Position numbers and translations under genes: made by a program
Part shown: piece after piece, positions 1,985-13,362 of the stretch
How positions within the stretch are numbered: the first letter of the stretch is position 1
How the letters are laid out: every line of letters starts with the position of its first letter
The notes under the pieces: model-generated
The model's input: the letters and a program-made list of their open reading frames with translations, nothing else
Database searches by the model: none
Told to the model about the DNA's origin: nothing
Origin: Fimbriimonadaceae bacterium
Lineage (GTDB): Bacteria > Armatimonadota > Fimbriimonadia > Fimbriimonadales > Fimbriimonadaceae
NCBI GenBank assembly: GCA_022842565.1
Contig: JALHPH010000007.1
Location: 1-15,659 of the forward strand
Direction of reading: 5' to 3'
Length of the DNA stretch: 15,659 nt

Positions 1985-3931
1985 ATGTCGTCTTTTTGTC
2001 CATCGCATGCGGAGATTTTTGCGGAGCTTGATCGCTTGGTTCCGGGAAGGCCCTTTCTTGCACTCGGGCAAACAGCCTTTTGGGACGAGCCGATGAAGGG
2101 CGGATTGGCGCTCTGCTCGCGACATCTTGGATTCAATCGGGGGTTTGTCGGGGGGGTCCACGATACCGATTACTTCGCCCGGCACCCTGGAATCAAAGCG
2201 ACCGGCTATGTGGCGCTGGCTCATAACGACACCACGACCAAGGGGCTCTGGAGCGCGGCGGGCGAGTTCTCCTCCATCTTCGGCAGCGAGACGGTGATCA
2301 CACGCGACCTCCTGCGCGCTGCGGGCTCCAAGGACGCCAAAGTCGCCCGCGCTCGCCCCGGAATCCTGGACGCCATGACCGAAGCCTATGGCTGGCGAGG
2401 GGTGGCCTTTGCGGGGGAGGACTCCTCCGTGATCGCCGAAACACCTATGCGCAAAGCGGGCGGTGTGCTCATCGAGACCCTGAATTGGGCCATCGAAACG
2501 ACGCTGCAAGCCCTCCCTGAGTGCATCGCCGCCGACCGCCGCACCAAAGCCGAGGAGCTTCAGAAGCTGGTCTGCGATGCTGCGTGCGAGGAAGAGGTCG
2601 GCTCGGTGGGAGAATTCTTCAGGCGAGTTCTGCCGGGGCTCTATGATTGGGTGGCGGGGCAGTCGGTCGGGGTCGAAGCGACTCAGACCACCGAACTGCT
2701 GCGTCTGAACCCTGAGACCGCCGCTCTCCCCAGGTTCCGGCTCCTTAACGCATTCTTGGACCCTGCTACCCGCGCGGACGCCGTGCGCGCCTACGACGAA
2801 GCACTGCGCGGGAGTGAGGCGTATACGCTTGACCGCTTCGGGTCATGGGCGATTCCGTTTGATGTCGTCATCCCCGGAGTTGGGCGGGGGACCCTGCGGG
2901 TCGCCCGGCGGGGAATCATCATCGCGACTCCTACTCCGGTCGCCATCACTACCAAGCGAAGCGTGCAATCGGTCGCAGATCTTGCTGAGGTCCTCACTGC
3001 TCAATTTGGCCCCAATTGTACGGTGGTTGGGAAGGCCGTCAGCCTCATCGGCATGCTCGCCGAGGAGTATGTTTTTGTTTTTCACGAAGGGGCCAGCGGC
3101 TATCTGCCCCAGGTCCAGCGGTTCCACCAGAACCTGCGCGCGCACGGCTTGCAGATTGCCCCCTCGCCCGTTTTGCGGGTGAAATACCACACATGGTCCA
3201 CGCTGGCCGAGTGCAATGTTTGGCTGAAACTGCCCGAGCCGCTTCGCCAGCCTTTTGGCGCAGATGAGCTGAGTTCTTCCAGTTTCTCGACCCGTTGGCC
3301 CGCCGTGCGACAGGAGCAGAGCCAAATCCTTGCCGAACTCGCCCAGCTTCGCCGCCCGCTTGAACTGGTGCGCTATCTCTCGCACAAATTCGCCCACAGC
3401 TGGGATCAGCTGGCTCAGCGATACGAATTCCAGAACGCTCGACTGGAGCGCCTTCACGACGAGATCGCAGCCATCCGCATCCGCAAAGCCGCAGCGCTGG
3501 AACAATGGCGGGCGCACAAAGCCACCCGCGCGCAGCTTCAAAACGAGCTTGGAGAACACTGGCGCGCTGCGATCTTTGAAAAAGAACCCACCGAGGCCGA
3601 CTTTGCCGAAAGGGCACGGCGGCAAGAGGCGCTAGATGAAGCCGCTAGGAGGGTCCGAGAGTCGATCCAGGATTGGAACACACTGCAGGACGAACAGAAC
3701 GCTCTCGTCGCAAGCGCGGAGATTCGAGAGGCCCACCGACAGCGCAGGGACCTGGAACTGGAGGCGGAGCTCAAACGTCTCAAGCTGGTTCGTCAGGCGG
3801 TGACCGTCACCAAGGGACTGATGCGGGCCGAGCGCCGACCCAGCGCATGGTGGTTCCCCATCCTGTGTCCCGACGGTGGTTGGTTGCGCCAGACCGTGAA
3901 CAGCGCCGAATACTACTTGGAGCCCCTTTGA
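1985..3931 (+). CDS. Large uncharacterised protein with C-terminal coiled coil
   Basis: The product has 648 residues. I do not recognise the family. There is no signal peptide or membrane helix, so it should be cytoplasmic. Residues about 1-180 are Gly-rich and look globular (F-L-A-L-G-Q-T-A-F-W-D-E-P and G-V-H-D-T-D-Y-F-A-R are the most motif-like stretches). The middle, about 180-430, is mixed alpha/beta. Residues about 440-620 are rich in Glu, Arg, Gln, Leu and Ala with heptad-like spacing (L-A-E-L-A-Q-L-R-R, L-E-R-L-H-D-E-I-A-A-I-R), so a long coiled coil is likely. The last 30 residues return to a Trp-rich tail (S-A-W-W-F-P-I-L-C-P-D-G-G-W). I considered the NFACT/RqcH and BshC families because of the coiled coil, but their signature motifs are absent. 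The ATG at 1985 has an AGGG 9 nt upstream. The stop overlaps the dapF start (TTGA), so the two are probably co-translated. Confidence 0.8.
   Translation: MSSFCPSHAEIFAELDRLVPGRPFLALGQTAFWDEPMKGGLALCSRHLGFNRGFVGGVHDTDYFARHPGIKATGYVALAHNDTTTKGLWSAAGEFSSIFGSETVITRDLLRAAGSKDAKVARARPGILDAMTEAYGWRGVAFAGEDSSVIAETPMRKAGGVLIETLNWAIETTLQALPECIAADRRTKAEELQKLVCDAACEEEVGSVGEFFRRVLPGLYDWVAGQSVGVEATQTTELLRLNPETAALPRFRLLNAFLDPATRADAVRAYDEALRGSEAYTLDRFGSWAIPFDVVIPGVGRGTLRVARRGIIIATPTPVAITTKRSVQSVADLAEVLTAQFGPNCTVVGKAVSLIGMLAEEYVFVFHEGASGYLPQVQRFHQNLRAHGLQIAPSPVLRVKYHTWSTLAECNVWLKLPEPLRQPFGADELSSSSFSTRWPAVRQEQSQILAELAQLRRPLELVRYLSHKFAHSWDQLAQRYEFQNARLERLHDEIAAIRIRKAAALEQWRAHKATRAQLQNELGEHWRAAIFEKEPTEADFAERARRQEALDEAARRVRESIQDWNTLQDEQNALVASAEIREAHRQRRDLELEAELKRLKLVRQAVTVTKGLMRAERRPSAWWFPILCPDGGWLRQTVNSAEYYLEPL
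3917..3922 (+). promoter_or_regulatory. Ribosome binding site (TTGGAG) fixing the TTG start of dapF
   Basis: GGAG at 3919-3922 lies 5 nt before the TTG at 3928. The reading frame upstream of this TTG is only a shadow of the previous gene, and DapF homology begins right after it, so this site decides the start. Confidence 0.65.
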
Positions 3932-7858: not shown

Positions 7859-8737
7859 GTGGACTTATCAGAGGGACTATCGGCCTATGCTCGTCGGGTC
7901 GATTCCAGACTGAGCCAACTCCTACCCACCAGCGCCGATGAGCCCAAACGGCTGCACGAGGCGATGCGTTACGCGCTGCTTGCGCCCGGCAAACGCATCC
8001 GGCCGGTGCTTTGCATGGAATCGGCCAGGGCCATAGGTGCGGACCCCGCTTTGGCCCTCGATGCAGGATGCGCGCTGGAAATGGTGCACTGTTTTTCGCT
8101 GATCCACGACGACTTGCCGGCAATCGATAACGACGATATGCGCAGAGGTCGGCCCACGGTCCATGTGGCCTTCGGAGAAGCCACTGCCATTTTGGCGGGC
8201 GACGCGCTGTTTGCCCTGGCTTTCGAAGTGATGGCGCGCTGCAGCGACGACCCAACCTTGGCGCTGGCCGCCGTTGCCGAGTTAGCCGTCACCAGCGGTA
8301 CCCGCGGTTTGGTGGGCGGCGAATTGATGGACATTGAAGCCGAAGGCGTGCAACCCAGCGCCGACTTGTTGCAACAAATCCATCATCAGAAGACGGCCGT
8401 GCTGATGGGCTGCTCGTGCGTGATCGGGGGCATCCTGGGAGGAGGAAAGCCGCCGCAGGTCGAAGCGCTCCGGCGTTACGGCATCGCTCTAGGACTCGCG
8501 TTCCAGGTGTACGACGATATCCTCAATGTGGTCGGCGACCCCGAAACGCTGGGCAAGAGCGCGGGCAGCGACGCCGAACGTGGCAAAATGACTTTTCCGG
8601 CGGTGTACGGGCTCGCCGAATCACGCAAGATGGCGGAGGACCTGCGCGACCAAGCGCTCATCGCGCTGCGCGGGCTTCCGGGCGAGGCCACCATGCTGGC
8701 GCAGCTGGCACACTTCGTGGTGAATCGCGAAAGTTAG
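7859..8737 (+). CDS. ispA: Polyprenyl synthetase, IspA type (farnesyl/geranylgeranyl diphosphate synthase)
   Basis: This enzyme condenses isopentenyl diphosphate with allylic diphosphates to give C15 or C20 chains for quinones, undecaprenyl phosphate and carotenoids. The product has 292 residues. The first Asp-rich motif is D-D-L-P-A-I-D-N-D-D followed by M-R-R-G-R-P-T (84-100), with the two-residue insertion typical of bacterial IspA/CrtE. The second is Y-D-D-I-L-N-V-V-G-D (218-227). G-K-R-I-R-P (44-49) binds diphosphate. The residues before the first motif (H-C-F-S-L-I-H) put Phe where E. coli IspA has Tyr, so the product length cannot be fixed from sequence. The GTG at 7859 is the only reasonable start: the next ATG lies past the first helix. 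The stop overlaps the stop of the convergent Clp1-like gene by 4 nt. Confidence 0.9.
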   Translation: MDLSEGLSAYARRVDSRLSQLLPTSADEPKRLHEAMRYALLAPGKRIRPVLCMESARAIGADPALALDAGCALEMVHCFSLIHDDLPAIDNDDMRRGRPTVHVAFGEATAILAGDALFALAFEVMARCSDDPTLALAAVAELAVTSGTRGLVGGELMDIEAEGVQPSADLLQQIHHQKTAVLMGCSCVIGGILGGGKPPQVEALRRYGIALGLAFQVYDDILNVVGDPETLGKSAGSDAERGKMTFPAVYGLAESRKMAEDLRDQALIALRGLPGEATMLAQLAHFVVNRES

Positions 8738-9657
8738 ACTGACCAGGGCTTGATCTCGCCGAGTTCTTTGCCCTCGCCATCGACCCGCAGGCATCCCAGT
8801 TGAAGCGAAGTGGCGACTCCGCCCGGAATTGCCTGTGACCGAACCAAAAATCGGCCCCGAGCGAATTCTGCCCGCTCAATCATGCCGAGCCCGAGTGGTT
8901 CGCCGTTTTGCCGGACGAGCGCGCACACCAGGTGCTCGAAGTCACTCTCCAGAACGTTGTGGAATCGCAGGGTGTGGGTGTGCTGCATGGCCCGGGCGGC
9001 AGCGTTTTCAGGCAGAGATTCGACGCTAATGCCGTAGAGCTGACTGCCGGATTTTTCGGCATACAGAATGGGGTCGAGGAGCGGCTCCTTTGGCAGCCGG
9101 ACAGACTCGCCGCACCCTATCCTCGCGTCGAGGAGAACGGTTTGGTCGAGTGCCACTTCGTGCAGGGCGTTATGCTCTTGCGCCTCGATCCAACGCGAGC
9201 GGCGGCGTGCAGTCTCCACCATCGGCGGCAGAGCGGGCGTCAACGGCACGGTCTCGGGCCCCATGCCCCAGCCCTCCATTTCGATATCGGAGTCCTGCGG
9301 AACCAGGATTTCATCGGGACGTACAATGGCCAGCAAGGCCTGCAAAAGCTGGCGCACCACCGGTTGCGGACGGTAGTTTGGCAGCTGCACCACGAGTTCG
9401 CGCTGGGCTTTGGGCAGCATTTCGGCCGTGGCACGCGCCAGGGCCAAGGGTTGCCGGCTGGCATCGAGCGAGCCCACCAGCCGCCAAGCCAGCGGCTCTT
9501 GCCCGCGCATCAGCACAGCCCGAGCGGGCGGACCGAACTGCGCGTCCATGGGATCCAAAACCAGCAGGTCGCGAGATCCTAAGTGATCGGCCAGCCATGG
9601 GGTCCAGCGGTGAATCGGGGACCCCAAAAGGGCAGTCACGTGTCGACGCTCAGTCAT
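8734..9657 (-). CDS. Clp1/Grc3-like polynucleotide kinase homologue with lost P-loop
   Basis: The product has 307 residues. Its order of motifs matches archaeal and bacterial Clp1/Grc3 RNA 5'-hydroxyl kinases (COG1341). L-V-L-D-P-M-D-A-Q-F-G-P-P (32-44) sits where the family has a D-x-D-x-G-Q...P-P segment, V-G-S-L-D-A-S-R (61-68) where it has F-V-G-T/S-x-S-P, and V-R-P-D-E-I-L-V (112-119) where it has I-x-P-x-x-I-V. The C-terminal domain also fits: L-V-C-A-L (243-247), P-L-G-L-G-M-I-E-R-A-E-F (254-265) and L-G-C-L-R-V-D-G-E-G-K-E-L-G (287-300). The Walker A segment is not there: L-G-S-P-I-H-R-W-T (11-19) replaces G-x-x-x-x-G-K-S-T, so ATP binding should be lost. An in-frame TAG just upstream rules out a longer start. 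It lies 20 nt after prcB, where actinobacteria carry prcA, which it does not resemble. The family call is from memory of motifs only. Confidence 0.6.
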   Translation of the reverse strand: MTERRHVTALLGSPIHRWTPWLADHLGSRDLLVLDPMDAQFGPPARAVLMRGQEPLAWRLVGSLDASRQPLALARATAEMLPKAQRELVVQLPNYRPQPVVRQLLQALLAIVRPDEILVPQDSDIEMEGWGMGPETVPLTPALPPMVETARRRSRWIEAQEHNALHEVALDQTVLLDARIGCGESVRLPKEPLLDPILYAEKSGSQLYGISVESLPENAAARAMQHTHTLRFHNVLESDFEHLVCALVRQNGEPLGLGMIERAEFARGRFLVRSQAIPGGVATSLQLGCLRVDGEGKELGEIKPWSV

Positions 9658-9677: not shown

Positions 9678-10424
9678 TTATTCCGACTTTGATTTGCGCG
9701 CTCGGGCGATGAGCACTTCAAGCTCCTTGCCCTCGATCAGCTGGTTACCGTCGGCGGTGAGGTCACGCACGATCGGCGGGTGCTTGGCCAGTCCGCCTGT
9801 TGCCGAGTCAAGATCAGCCGCAATGAGCAACATCCGCAAGGCATCCACGAGGACATCATCGCGCTTTCTCAAATGCCATGGACCGGATTGGTTGGCCACG
9901 TAATCAAAAATGCCGCGAATCCGCTCGGAGCCGCTGCCAGCCGAGGCATGATCGCCCAACTCGAATCGGGCGCCCGCGGTATCGAACGAATACACGCCGA
10001 ACCGTTGGTGCTTGGGGTCATAGGCCGCAAGGATTGGAATGAACACGCCGATGCCGTTCATTGCCATGCCTAGGTTCTGCGAAAGCGCCTTGCTGATTTC
10101 CTGCAGCTTTCCGTCCAGAGACATTTCTTGCAGGTGCATGCGGCGGTAGTACTTGAAGCTGTGTTTGAGCAGTCGGCAGATTTCAATGCTGCGCGCGAAG
10201 GATCCGCTAATGGCGATGACCGTGCTATCGTCCAGCGCGAAGAGCTTCTCGGCTTGGTCGTACATCACCAGGTTGCCCATGGTTGCCAATCGGTCGGCCA
10301 GCGTGACGACGCCACCGTTGTATTTGATCGACAGCACCGTAGTGCCGTGAATCTCCTCGGCGACCATTGGCTTGGGCGCATAGCCAACCAGATCGAAGAA
10401 GGATTTGGGGCGATCCAGGTTCAT
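9678..10424 (-). CDS. prcB: Proteasome beta subunit (20S core protease)
   Basis: This is an N-terminal nucleophile hydrolase that forms the proteolytic beta rings of the bacterial 20S proteasome. The product has 248 residues. The 27-residue propeptide ends H-G before T-T-V-L-S-I, so Thr28 becomes Thr1 after self-cleavage. Counted from there, Asp17 (T-L-A-D-R, residue 44) and Lys33 (A-E-K-L, residue 60) of the catalytic triad are present. S-A-G-S-G-S (161-166) and A-D-L-D-S-A-T-G-G (203-211) are the usual later motifs, so it should be active. The ATG overlaps the UBact stop as ATGA and has GGAG 6 nt upstream. No alpha subunit (prcA) follows; either it lies elsewhere or the core differs. A PrcB-only HslV-like peptidase is less likely, since the propeptide and the neighbours fit a UBact proteasome. 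Confidence 0.93.
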   Translation of the reverse strand: MNLDRPKSFFDLVGYAPKPMVAEEIHGTTVLSIKYNGGVVTLADRLATMGNLVMYDQAEKLFALDDSTVIAISGSFARSIEICRLLKHSFKYYRRMHLQEMSLDGKLQEISKALSQNLGMAMNGIGVFIPILAAYDPKHQRFGVYSFDTAGARFELGDHASAGSGSERIRGIFDYVANQSGPWHLRKRDDVLVDALRMLLIAADLDSATGGLAKHPPIVRDLTADGNQLIEGKELEVLIARARKSKSE

Positions 10425-10597
10425 TGCCCGCTCCGTTGGCGGTATTTCTTGGCCTGGTCGGGGTCAATGCGCTTGAGCCTTTCGCGCAACGGATTGGCCG
10501 GGGCTGGTCGGTCCAGGTTCGGCTTGCTGGGACCGTCCTCGTCCGCGTGTTTGCGCTCGGGGGTCGGTTCTTGGGGTCTTGTGATGCGATCAGGCAT
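10421..10597 (-). CDS. ubact: UBact, a Pup-like protein modifier
   Basis: This 58-residue protein begins M-P-D-R-I-T-R-P-Q-E and ends with I-D-P-D-Q-A-K-K-Y-R-Q-R-S-G-Q. It is Pro, Asp, Glu, Lys and Arg rich and likely disordered. The C-terminus K-Y-R-Q-R-S-G-Q is the hallmark of UBact, the Pup relative of Gram-negative bacteria; actinobacterial Pup ends G-G-Q or G-G-E. As with Gln-ended Pup, Dop should deamidate the last Gln to Glu, and a PafA-type ligase would then join it to substrate lysines and mark them for the proteasome. L-R-E-R-L-K-R-I (37-44) could form the helix read by the ring ATPase. The start has TTGGAG 7 nt upstream and overlaps the dop stop by 8 nt; the stop overlaps prcB by 4 nt. 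That placement between dop and prcB, as in actinobacterial dop-pup-prcB, is strong support. Confidence 0.92.
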   Translation of the reverse strand: MPDRITRPQEPTPERKHADEDGPSKPNLDRPAPANPLRERLKRIDPDQAKKYRQRSGQ

Positions 10598-12050
10598 TAA
10601 TCTGCTCCAATAGGTTGATGAAGTCTTCTACGTTGTGAGCGCCTGCCAGCGCTGCGTAATCTCGGTCGGGAAGCAACTCGATGGTGCGCCCAGCCAAAGT
10701 GAAACCCCGCCAGTTGGCTTGGGTAAGGTGCTCACGGAATCTTTGGACTGCTAGCGCCCGAGCCCAGGCCCGGGTTGGCTCTTGGGGCAATGCACTCTCC
10801 GTGAGAGCGGGTGGGGCTTCGACATGCTCCATGGCAATGAGATCGCTAAAAAGGGTGGTTTCGGTCGAAATCTCGGCGTACGCAAGGTCAATCGACTGCA
10901 GTTCGGGAGAGCCCGGCGCGTAACCCTCGTCCTCGCGCACCCACTCCGTGAGCCTCAGCTTCGCGGCCCAATCCACGTGCACGGCGAAATGGTCGGGATC
11001 AGCGCTAAACGCATCCAGCAAGCCGCGGCATTCGGTCAGGAGCAGCGATTCGGCGGGCGTCAGGGTCAGCGTGGCCTCGGCAGCAGCCAGATACGACTCC
11101 AGAACTTGCGGCGCGGTGGTCCAGCTGGCTCCTTCGAGCGGCAGACGTGCATCGCAGCTGAGGTCTCGGCTCACGACCTTGGCGGCTTGCACGGGGTCTT
11201 TCAACTTGAAAACTGGGCACTGGCCCTGAAGAAGCAAGCGGATGGCAAGCTGCACCAAGAAGACCTTTCGACGAGTCGCGCTGAAAATTCGGTTAGCATC
11301 GCCTGCGATCACGTGAAGGCGGATGAACCGGTCGGCGGGGGCGTGAGGCTCGTCGCGGGTGTTGAAGAGCGGTCGGCGATACAGGGTCTCCACGTTCACC
11401 GGTTCCATGAAGAAATCGGCCCGCTGGCTCAGCTGAAAAGGGCACGGGTCGCCGTTCTCGCTCCCGACCTTGCCCGCGCCGCAAAGCATTGGTCGCGTCA
11501 CCAGGAGCGGCAACAAGCCCTGCACCAAATCTTGGGCCGCGAGCGTTCGCGGGACCAGGTAGCTCTCATGGGTGCCGTAGCTAGCGCCGTGAAAATCGGT
11601 GTTGTTCTTGTAGGTTTCGGTGGCTTGGCCGGTTTTTTCGCTGAATGCCCTGGCTGCCAGGGCGACGCGCTTCTCGCCGAGCAGGTCCTCCCATGCCACG
11701 GCGTGAGCCGTCCAGCACTCGGGGGTCGCGTATTCGGGGTGGCCGTGGTCGTTATAGAACCTTGCGCCGCGCTCGGTGATGCGGTCTTGCCGCAGGTCAC
11801 GGTCGCTCGGTCGGTTCGGACGGGTTTCGAAAGCCTGGTCGCGGGGATCGACGCTCAGCCGGTCGACCGAGAAACCGCGCAGGTCTCGGCGCGGATGCTC
11901 GTCTCGATCATCCCAGCCAGAAAAAGCGAGGCCGGGCTCGTTGCAAACGAGCCCGGCCACATCCTGAATTTGGTCCTCCGGCCCACGTCCCTCAATGGCG
12001 ATTCCGTATTCGGTTTCGATCCCACAGAGGATGCGAGGTTCGGAGGTCAT
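10590..12050 (-). CDS. dop: Dop, deamidase/deconjugase of the Pup/UBact modifier
   Basis: Dop belongs to the carboxylate-amine ligase (glutamine synthetase-like) fold with PafA. It deamidates the C-terminal Gln of the modifier and removes the modifier from substrates. The product has 486 residues, the normal length. G-I-E-T-E-Y-G (10-16) holds the metal-binding Glu pair, and F-Y-N-D-H-G-H-P-E-Y (98-107) holds the nucleophile Asp (Asp101). Y-K-N-N-T-D, G-A-S-Y-G-T-H-E-S-Y-L and F-N-T-R-D-E-P-H-A follow. I call it Dop, not PafA, from the long insert with R-R-D-L-R-G-F (54-60; the Dop loop region), F-Q-L-S-Q-R-A-D-F, D-W-A-A-K-L-R-L and the C-terminal V-E-D-F-I-N-L-L-E-Q. The ATG at 12050 follows the TAG of the lipoprotein gene after one base; the frame is open 31 codons further upstream, but family similarity begins here. 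A terminator-like hairpin lies in codons 31-41. Confidence 0.92.
   Translation of the reverse strand: MTSEPRILCGIETEYGIAIEGRGPEDQIQDVAGLVCNEPGLAFSGWDDRDEHPRRDLRGFSVDRLSVDPRDQAFETRPNRPSDRDLRQDRITERGARFYNDHGHPEYATPECWTAHAVAWEDLLGEKRVALAARAFSEKTGQATETYKNNTDFHGASYGTHESYLVPRTLAAQDLVQGLLPLLVTRPMLCGAGKVGSENGDPCPFQLSQRADFFMEPVNVETLYRRPLFNTRDEPHAPADRFIRLHVIAGDANRIFSATRRKVFLVQLAIRLLLQGQCPVFKLKDPVQAAKVVSRDLSCDARLPLEGASWTTAPQVLESYLAAAEATLTLTPAESLLLTECRGLLDAFSADPDHFAVHVDWAAKLRLTEWVREDEGYAPGSPELQSIDLAYAEISTETTLFSDLIAMEHVEAPPALTESALPQEPTRAWARALAVQRFREHLTQANWRGFTLAGRTIELLPDRDYAALAGAHNVEDFINLLEQINA
10605..10610 (-). promoter_or_regulatory. Ribosome binding site (TTGGAG) of ubact, inside the end of dop
   Basis: GGAG lies 7 nt before the ATG at 10597 and within the last codons of dop. 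It supports the short ubact ORF as a translated gene rather than a chance frame. Confidence 0.65.
11921..11958 (-). terminator. Terminator-like hairpin inside the 5' part of dop
   Basis: On the minus strand GGCCGGGCTCGTT, a 3-nt TGC loop and AACGAGCCCGGCC form a perfect 13-bp GC-rich stem (11958-11930). TCGC and then TTTTT (11925-11921) follow. The order stem then T-run fits an intrinsic terminator or pause site for the dop mRNA direction only; the plus direction has no T-run. The T-run begins 4 nt after the stem, so termination may be partial. It lies within codons 31-45 of dop, in a poorly conserved part of the protein. Confidence 0.45.
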
Positions 12051-12051
12051 C

Positions 12052-13362
12052 CTATCGTCGGTAGACCGTGAATCCACCCAGCGCAGGGAAGGTCCAGCTG
12101 CCCGGAGGCGTGCCCACGACGTCCCACTCGCCGCCGCGGACAAAACCGTCGGACGAAAGCACCAGGTTCGAAACGGTACCGGTTACTTCGACGGAAGGTA
12201 CTGCATCGTCAATGGTTCCAATTGGGAATAGGCGGAAGGTACCGCGTGTTGGGTTGCCGCTGGTGTTGTAGAACACTTGGCCCTGCCACATGGCGGTGAT
12301 GGTGGTTCCGGAGGTGCGGAAGATCACAAACTGCTGCTCTTCGATGTCGCTTGGATTGTCGGTTTCGCGGCTGCTTGGGAACGCAACAGCGCTGTAGGTA
12401 TCCGTCGGAGTAATCGTTCGATCCCAGTTCTTCCAAGATCCCACCAAGCTGGTCACGGCTGTGTTGCTGGGTGTTTCGTCATCCAACACAAAGACGTTTG
12501 CAGCTTGCGTTTGTTGACCAGTTGGGCCGATGAGCGGGCCGGTGCTGACCTTACCGCCTCGAATCACAACTGGATCAATCAGCTGGAAGTTGCTGGAGTC
12601 ACCCATGCCTTGGCTCATCGCGATGCCGTCACCGCTGTAGAACACTCGGTCGGCTTGTCCTCCGCCGCCCAAGAGCGTCGGTCGCTCGCCGGAAGGGATG
12701 CCGCTGATATCAAACGCAACGTAGCCGTTGAAGTTAGAGTTGATAGAGCGCGTCACTGTATCGTAGTTGGCAGCCACGAACTGGTCAGTGTTGAAAACCA
12801 CGCGGTTTTGCGCGGTGGAAAAGCTGACCATTGCCTCATCCACCCGGAGCGTCACGGCCGAGATACGACCAGGGACCAAGCGAATATTGGTGTCGAACGG
12901 GGCCGGTGGCACATAAGCGATCACCGAAGGCGGCGTGAGTGCTTGCAGGTTCGTTCCGACGATTTCGTACATCGTACGAATCTCGAGTGGGTGCTGGCCG
13001 AAGCTTCGCCCAGACACCCCGTTTAGTGCAACCGGGTAAGTGAAATTGTTGATGGTATAGCCATCGAGTCGCACTCTCACTTCTGCCGTCGTGATGTCAT
13101 CGGCCGAGGGAATCGTATCATTCACGCCATTTTGGTAGCGGACCTGACTGATGCCAGCGACTTGCGAGGGGCCGCGCGACGAGCGCGAGGAACCCGACAG
13201 GTAGGTCGTCTGCATCGACGCAGTCGTGCCGAGCGACACCGTGGGACGCGAACGCGTTCGATCCGGTGGCGGAACAACTCCGCCAGCGTCACCGCCTCCA
13301 CCGCCACAGCCGACCACCACAGTCAGCGCTACCAGAAAAATACTAAGAGTCCGTACACTCAC
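12052..13362 (-). CDS. Uncharacterised lipoprotein
   Basis: From the GTG at 13362 the product has 436 residues. It starts V-S-V-R-T-L-S-I-F-L-V-A-L-T-V-V-V-G-C, a good lipoprotein signal with the lipidated Cys at 19, then a Gly-rich linker (C-G-G-G-G-G-D-A-G-G). The rest is Ser, Thr, Val and Asn rich, probably beta-sheet, without Cys or a catalytic motif that I can see; S-W-T-F-P-A-L-G-G-F-T-V-Y-R-R ends it. I do not recognise the family. The frame is open to an ATG at 13464 that overlaps the stop of the preceding gene as ATGA. That start would put 34 extra residues before the signal, which would spoil it, so I prefer the GTG; GTAAGG lies about 8 nt before it and a -10-like TATACT lies further up. 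The gene ends one base before dop, so it is probably transcribed together with the proteasome genes. Confidence 0.75.
   Translation of the reverse strand: MSVRTLSIFLVALTVVVGCGGGGGDAGGVVPPPDRTRSRPTVSLGTTASMQTTYLSGSSRSSRGPSQVAGISQVRYQNGVNDTIPSADDITTAEVRVRLDGYTINNFTYPVALNGVSGRSFGQHPLEIRTMYEIVGTNLQALTPPSVIAYVPPAPFDTNIRLVPGRISAVTLRVDEAMVSFSTAQNRVVFNTDQFVAANYDTVTRSINSNFNGYVAFDISGIPSGERPTLLGGGGQADRVFYSGDGIAMSQGMGDSSNFQLIDPVVIRGGKVSTGPLIGPTGQQTQAANVFVLDDETPSNTAVTSLVGSWKNWDRTITPTDTYSAVAFPSSRETDNPSDIEEQQFVIFRTSGTTITAMWQGQVFYNTSGNPTRGTFRLFPIGTIDDAVPSVEVTGTVSNLVLSSDGFVRGGEWDVVGTPPGSWTFPALGGFTVYRR

Follow-up and report, generated by a model that had tools for sequence, protein, structure and literature searches.

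RNA 5'-kinases of the Clp1/Grc3 family have relatives that are retained without detected kinase activity. Yeast Clp1, as described in excerpts of two papers, is kinase-inactive and contributes to the formation of mRNA 3' ends; it binds ATP with no hydrolysis, and ATP binding regulates its contact with Pcf11 (PMC10598085, PMC13066744). In bacteria, Clp1 is restricted to few according to an excerpt of a 2019 survey (PMC6777427). Here, we describe a Clp1/Grc3 homolog that is devoid of a P-loop (Walker A, GxxxxGK[S/T]). It is encoded on contig JALHPH010000007.1 from a Fimbriimonadaceae bacterium (Armatimonadota; assembly GCA_022842565.1). The contig (15,659 nucleotides) was analyzed as a whole and is referred to as the window; it belongs to a metagenome assembly that is 70% complete. 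On sequence grounds, we consider it likely that the gene encodes a non-catalytic, vertically inherited Clp1/Grc3 homolog (a pseudoenzyme), which was relocated to a site beside prcB, the gene for the proteasome beta subunit. The family of the window is termed f1, while f2 to f5 are other families of the same order.

The Gene and Its Descent

The gene and its characteristic segments are:

8734..9657, minus strand: P-loop-less Clp1/Grc3 homolog, 307 amino acids, ATG start; supported by homologs and by a profile match to CLP1_P proteins
9601..9624, minus strand: degenerate Walker A, residues 12-19 (GSPIHRWT); W18 (9604-9606) is at the P-loop Lys position
9550..9558, minus strand: Walker B remnant, residues 34-36 (LDP); D35 is kept, the following GQ is lost
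9190..9204, minus strand: lid remnant, residues 152-156 (RRSRW), based on residue counts in f1
8737..8772, minus strand: conserved C-terminal tail, GKELGEIKPWSV; its W305 is found in 64/67 f1 and 6/6 f5 sequences

The open reading frame (ORF) at 8734-9657 is a real gene because homologs were found in the genomes of relatives. A search of 61 genomes, 60 of them from relatives, with the window protein gave matches in 43, own included; in the others, the identity is 23-40% over a part or the greater part of the protein. With an f1 profile, the gene was matched in 68 of 85 f1 genomes. In a protein search (8000 candidates scored), the closest others among the 20 matches listed, own included, show 73, 57 and 48% identity. 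The closest relatives of the window protein are P0003-P0008 (42-73% identity). P0020, also among the matches listed, is annotated by one source as "polynucleotide 5'-kinase involved in rRNA processing".

Through intermediates and as judged from profile comparisons, the 307-residue protein is homologous to the CLP1_P domain and the C-terminal domain that follows it. The preliminary description, made from the sequence of the window, had called it a relative of Clp1/Grc3 kinases, and alignment via the CLP1_P-bearing proteins of f2-4 bears this out. Profiles of 23 f1 and nine f2-4 proteins were aligned by hhalign with a probability of 99.9 (E 1.1e-35, 289 columns). The alignment spans residue 19 of the window protein to its last residue, and the C-terminal part aligns to the final residue of intact Clp1-type proteins. 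A repeat of this comparison gave the same outcome; the profile pairs f1-f5 and f5-f2-4 scored a probability of 100 (E 6e-51 and 2e-38), and four unrelated control profiles reached 0.1-1.7. CLP1_P is over its cut-off in 9/9 f2-4 genomes examined, the f4 protein L029 matches the whole CLP1_P profile (E 9e-37), and a CLP1_P-bearing f4 protein is found directly by the single window protein (E 9e-15). Within an alignment of 38 proteins (A1), ten match CLP1_P with an E-value of at most 0.01; one of these, the f5 protein L064 (E 6e-4), is below the cut-off. Among solved structures, the f2-4 profile matches Clp1 (4ohv, E 2.6e-18), NOL9 and GRC3. With the f1 profile alone, the weak matches among solved structures were to PurK-type proteins (E 0.004) and were taken as chance.

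Loss of the P-Loop and of Other Kinase Motifs

Motif counts in f1 are based on 67 of the 68 sequences. The one from G017 is broken at a contig start and was left out, and the one from G080 ends before the P-loop. For the other families, the counts cover 6/6 f5 genomes and 9/13 f2-4 genomes with a match, these nine being the ones that were fetched.

The Walker A segment of the window protein had been read as L-G-S-P-I-H-R-W-T without G-K-S/T, which is confirmed; there is no GK[S/T] anywhere in its 307 residues. Walker A is not found in any of the 67 f1 sequences (66 with the N-terminal part), so that the P-loop is lost in 66/66 orthologs with a readable N-terminus, as the preliminary description had proposed for the window. 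A P-loop elsewhere in the protein was looked for and found in none of the 67. The P-loop is kept in 5/6 f5 and 9/9 f2-4 proteins, i.e., in 14 of the 15 f2-f5 proteins examined. The Lys position of the P-loop is occupied by K in the same numbers (9/9 f2-4, 5/6 f5) and by Trp in 61 of the 64 f1 sequences that have a residue there. This register comes from MAFFT and from aligning the f1 and f5 profiles without gaps, which places S-W-R above G-K-T. The typical f1 signature is S/T-W-R-x-W, which reads R-W-T-P-W in the window protein, and W18 and W21 are invariant across the window protein and P0003-P0008. The second P-loop Gly is lost in nearly all f1 sequences, and the Ser/Thr position is Arg in 53/67.

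The Walker B Asp is kept in 62/67 f1 sequences; the first Asp, the Gly and the Gln are mostly lost, the latter being Q in 9/9 f2-4 but in only 4/67 f1 sequences (mostly D/E/N). The Clasp motif DTxG is lost in nearly all f1, and the f5 proteins are also without the Walker B Gln and DTxG. In the lid, R152 (66/67), R/K153 (66/67) and W156 (67/67) are conserved in f1; at the position of the other lid Arg (R196 in L067), R is found in 10/67. The motif order of the kinases had been described as kept. Of the motifs, f1 retains the Walker B Asp, one of the lid features and the C-terminal part; the Clasp and most of Walker B are lost.

A quick tree was computed from 87 rows, with the P-loop columns removed. 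The f1 proteins form one clade (SH-aLRT 99) and the f5 proteins another (96) beside it, with f2-4 on the other side of the root. Of the inner branches, 29/84 are unresolved, and there are long branches (G006, G088, L062). From the tree and the motifs, read by eye, the P-loop appears to have been lost once toward f1 and once more within f5. The latter case is L062 (genome G048), which shows a separate loss of the P-loop Lys (K to H, GAPGSGHR). Within one bacterial order, there is a graded series: f2-f4 have complete CLP1_P proteins, the f5 proteins have a P-loop while their other motifs are eroded, and in f1 a fixed Trp motif takes the place of the P-loop.

The CLP1_P profile found nothing over its cut-off in the 85 f1 genomes, with three weak matches below it. 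The P-loop-less form seems to be the sole Clp1-type protein of f1, although a diverged one could have escaped the search. CLP1_P is over the Pfam cut-off in 134 of 291 Armatimonadota genomes.

Gene Neighborhood and the Proteasome Genes

The genes adjoining the Clp1-like gene in the window are:

9678..10424, minus strand: prcB, proteasome beta subunit (Pfam PF00227, Proteasome, E 8e-23); a neighbor, not a conserved partner
10421..10597, minus strand: small ORF in the UBact position, 58 amino acids; blastp match in 26/30 prcB loci, own included
10590..12143, minus strand: Dop/PafA-type ligase (Pup_ligase, Pfam); the closest NCBIfam model is Dop, below its cut-off
7859..8737, plus strand: polyprenyl synthetase (Pfam PF00348), convergent, with a 4-base overlap with the end of the Clp1-like gene

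For prcB, the closest NCBIfam model is 20S_bact_beta, also below the cut-off of the model. The 58-residue ORF owes the name UBact to the preliminary description; it is assigned by position, not by a family model. The true start of the Pup_ligase gene is probably inside the listed ORF. A polyprenyl synthetase akin to that of the window (37.5% identity over 216 residues) is encoded near the Clp1-like gene in G099 (L164, 3005-4360), which may be chance. A 648-residue ORF at 1985-3931 of the window has no Pfam match at E 0.001.

The usual company of the Clp1-like gene is a different one. In f5, the order is the gene itself, a histidine phosphatase gene (PF00300) and lnt (apolipoprotein N-acyltransferase; PF20154) in 6/6 genomes. 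Of the 68 f1 loci, 52 have the phosphatase gene downstream and co-oriented (47 under a strict distance limit), and 48 have lnt at a distance of at most 1.8 kb; in the f3 and the f4 locus, lnt is likewise found downstream. Sixteen f1 loci have no such phosphatase gene, among them the window and the locus of G075; the latter is cut by a contig end downstream. In the genome of the window, lnt is on a different contig. Because their usual phosphatase/lnt company is missing, we take the gene to be relocated in some lineages, including that of the window. A gene for tRNA-Pro (anticodon CGG) is located at most about 80 nt upstream of the Clp1-like gene in 6/6 f5 loci (L036, L062, L063, L064, L065, L068), in five of them on the same strand.

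As described before, the Clp1-like gene directly follows prcB. They are on the same strand, with 20 nt between the prcB stop codon and the start of the 307-residue ORF. Its placement had also been called the prcA position. The slot after prcB is indeed the one in question, though prcA no longer follows prcB in f1. In the f2, f3 and f5 genomes that have both, prcA is directly after prcB (19/19; L090). The two are apart in all 33 f1 genomes that have both, the nearest at about 18 kb, so that the split is family-wide. In the genome of the window, the assembly of which is 70% complete, prcA was not found. A replacement of prcA by the Clp1-like protein was considered and rejected: the protein has no Proteasome match, and prcA had already become separated from prcB in f1, so that the gene did not displace it. 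In G006 (L066, G006:C14:41040-45821), roughly 3 kb separate the Clp1-like gene from prcA; among the genomes inspected by eye, no further case of this kind was noticed.

prcB was found in 79 of 85 f1 genomes, and 30 prcB loci were read (27 f1, 3 f5, own included). A dop match precedes prcB in 26/30 of these, and the ORF in the UBact position has a match in 26/27 f1 and 0/3 f5 loci. The prcB matches of G002, G083 and G084 have one or two in-frame stops. In G017 and G080, a contig end truncates the Clp1-like gene upstream, on the side on which prcB would be expected; in G017, other ORFs are downstream of prcB.

Interpretation

On the branch to f1, the P-loop was lost, with its Lys replaced by the conserved Trp of S/T-W-R-x-W. 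The Clasp and most of Walker B disappeared as well; what was retained is the C-terminal domain with the tail and, in the lid, one Arg/Lys pair. ATP-dependent 5'-phosphorylation would thereby be gone; because key kinase motifs are lost, an ATP-driven phosphorylation is very unlikely. The protein may keep the RNA-facing half of the old enzyme, i.e., the lid arginines and the C-terminal domain. What is conserved is the lid Arg pair together with the C-terminal domain and the tail. On this basis, and by analogy with kinase-inactive eukaryotic Clp1, we favor a role in RNA binding or as a scaffold; the protein might thus act as an RNA-end-binding or scaffold factor. The site behind prcB would stem from a local relocation, or else from an assembly junction, and would be no pointer to a proteasome function, although read-through from the dop-UBact-prcB unit could drive expression of the gene.

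Several points weigh against this interpretation. On its own, the window protein is without a match in Pfam or NCBIfam, and among the solved structures no Clp1 is found with the f1 profile alone; for this reason, membership in Clp1/Grc3 rests on intermediates. The Clp1/Grc3 fold is putative, being proposed from sequence profiles, and the RNA-binding or scaffold role is inferred by analogy. The f1-f2-4 profile alignment begins just behind the P-loop; the register for the exchange of Lys by Trp is that of the f1-f5 alignment and of MAFFT. The first P-loop Gly is retained in 47/67 f1 sequences, and the window protein retains Thr at the Ser/Thr position of the P-loop. The gene is without a match in 17 of 85 f1 genomes, including four others of the genus of the window, and is thus dispensable in some f1 lineages. 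In f2, neither lnt nor the histidine phosphatase gene was found in seven loci (0/7).

The retained first Gly, together with the Walker B Asp and the lid Arg, also fits a protein that still binds or acts on a nucleotide via a rebuilt non-Walker site, with Trp stacking on the base, which would make it a different enzyme or a nucleotide-gated switch. That the altered site is conserved (S/T-W-R-x-W) rather than random is in line with this. However, nearly all f1 sequences are without the P-loop Lys and second Gly, without the Gln of Walker B and without the DTxG of the Clasp; Arg occupies the Ser/Thr position in most, and the ligand is conjectural. We consider such a site improbable. That the gene is the relic of a Clp1 kinase, decaying as selection is relaxed, is still harder to accept. 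The genomes without a match would agree with decay, as would the internal stretch missing from the G088 copy, the very long branches of G006 and G088 and the long branch of G064. The ratio of nonsynonymous to synonymous substitution rates (dN/dS), however, was computed for 25 f1 gene pairs with more than 62% identity. It is 0.037-0.313 in the 14 pairs with finite dS and 0.037-0.167 in the six pairs with dS <0.7. With dN/dS well below 1, the tested members are under purifying selection, which speaks against a decay of the f1 gene; the gene of the window is in none of the pairs, having no close enough DNA pair, and its own copy is not covered by this result. Internal stops are absent from all matches listed in the f1 profile search (there is one TAG in a longer G035 match from the window protein search), and a new conserved motif replaces the old one. 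For f1 as a family, decay is disfavored.

The preliminary description had proposed the protein as a new partner or regulator of the UBact proteasome. The strand and the short gap make co-transcription with prcB plausible, and a recruitment to the operon in the own clade of the window, as a lineage-specific partner, could escape linkage counts that do not take in the closest relatives P0003-P0008. Yet among 65 f1 genomes with both genes (on the same contig in 14), the two are adjacent only in the window, the next nearest distance being 24.6 kb. The preliminary description had asked whether orthologs always lack the P-loop and always follow prcB; the former holds within f1, the latter in 1/65. 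In f2-f5, where all but one of the orthologs examined have a normal P-loop, adjacency was found in 0 of 18 genomes with both genes, a pattern that the preliminary description had named as counting against its proposal. The four other genomes of the genus of the window (4/4) keep dop, the ORF in the UBact position and prcB, and the Clp1-like gene was not detected in them. The genes after prcB vary among the 27 f1 loci read, and the Clp1-like gene is usually accompanied by the phosphatase gene and lnt. As a conserved linkage with dop-UBact-prcB is absent, the partnership was rejected for the family, and we give very little credence to its lineage-specific form. The junction of prcB and the Clp1-like gene may even be an assembly join. 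A lone gene beside prcB should not be taken as a proteasome factor.

For the non-catalytic Clp1/Grc3 homolog that we prefer, a tentative extension can be imagined, which is more doubtful than the loss of catalysis. In the sole Clp1/Grc3 protein detected in f1, the former ATP site might have become a new aromatic site, with S/T-W-R-x-W in place of G-K-S/T, through which the protein recognizes a ligand, such as the 5' end of RNA, independently of ATP. If true, this would be a bacterial RNA-end reader derived from an RNA-end kinase. The ordered series from f2-f4 via f5 to f1 makes a non-phosphorylation role of Clp1 testable with native controls.

Comparison with Known Systems

In the literature searched, the coverage of which is incomplete and misses many papers, no inactive bacterial Clp1 was found, and nothing joins Clp1, Armatimonad and polynucleotide, or pseudoenzyme, polynucleotide kinase and Clp1; eukaryotic cases are known. 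Kinase-inactive eukaryotic Clp1 proteins (Clp1 of S. cerevisiae; Clp1-t1 and Clp1-t3 of T. brucei) resemble the f1 protein in being Clp1-family members that are retained without detected kinase activity. The excerpts consulted place their changes above all in the Clasp and report that ATP is still bound by the yeast protein (PMC10598085, PMC13066744), whereas in f1 the P-loop is gone, with Trp in place of Lys. The RNA-binding protein hnRNPUL1 has a dead polynucleotide kinase domain and, as described in an excerpt, a polynucleotide-kinase fold that binds RNA after a loss of catalysis (PMC13066744), features that the f1 protein would share. It differs in being eukaryotic, in being compared with PNKP, in having kept nucleotide binding and in its other domain setting (PMC13066744). 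A further comparison is with the bacterial Clp1 kinases, such as Ts-Clp1 from Thermus scotoductus (CLP1_P, PF16575). Here, the likeness is a homology that extends over the kinase-like and C-terminal parts and is traced via the CLP1_P proteins of Armatimonadota. Compared to these enzymes, the f1 protein has lost the Walker A, Walker B and Clasp motifs, apart from the Asp of Walker B and, in many members, the first Gly of the P-loop.
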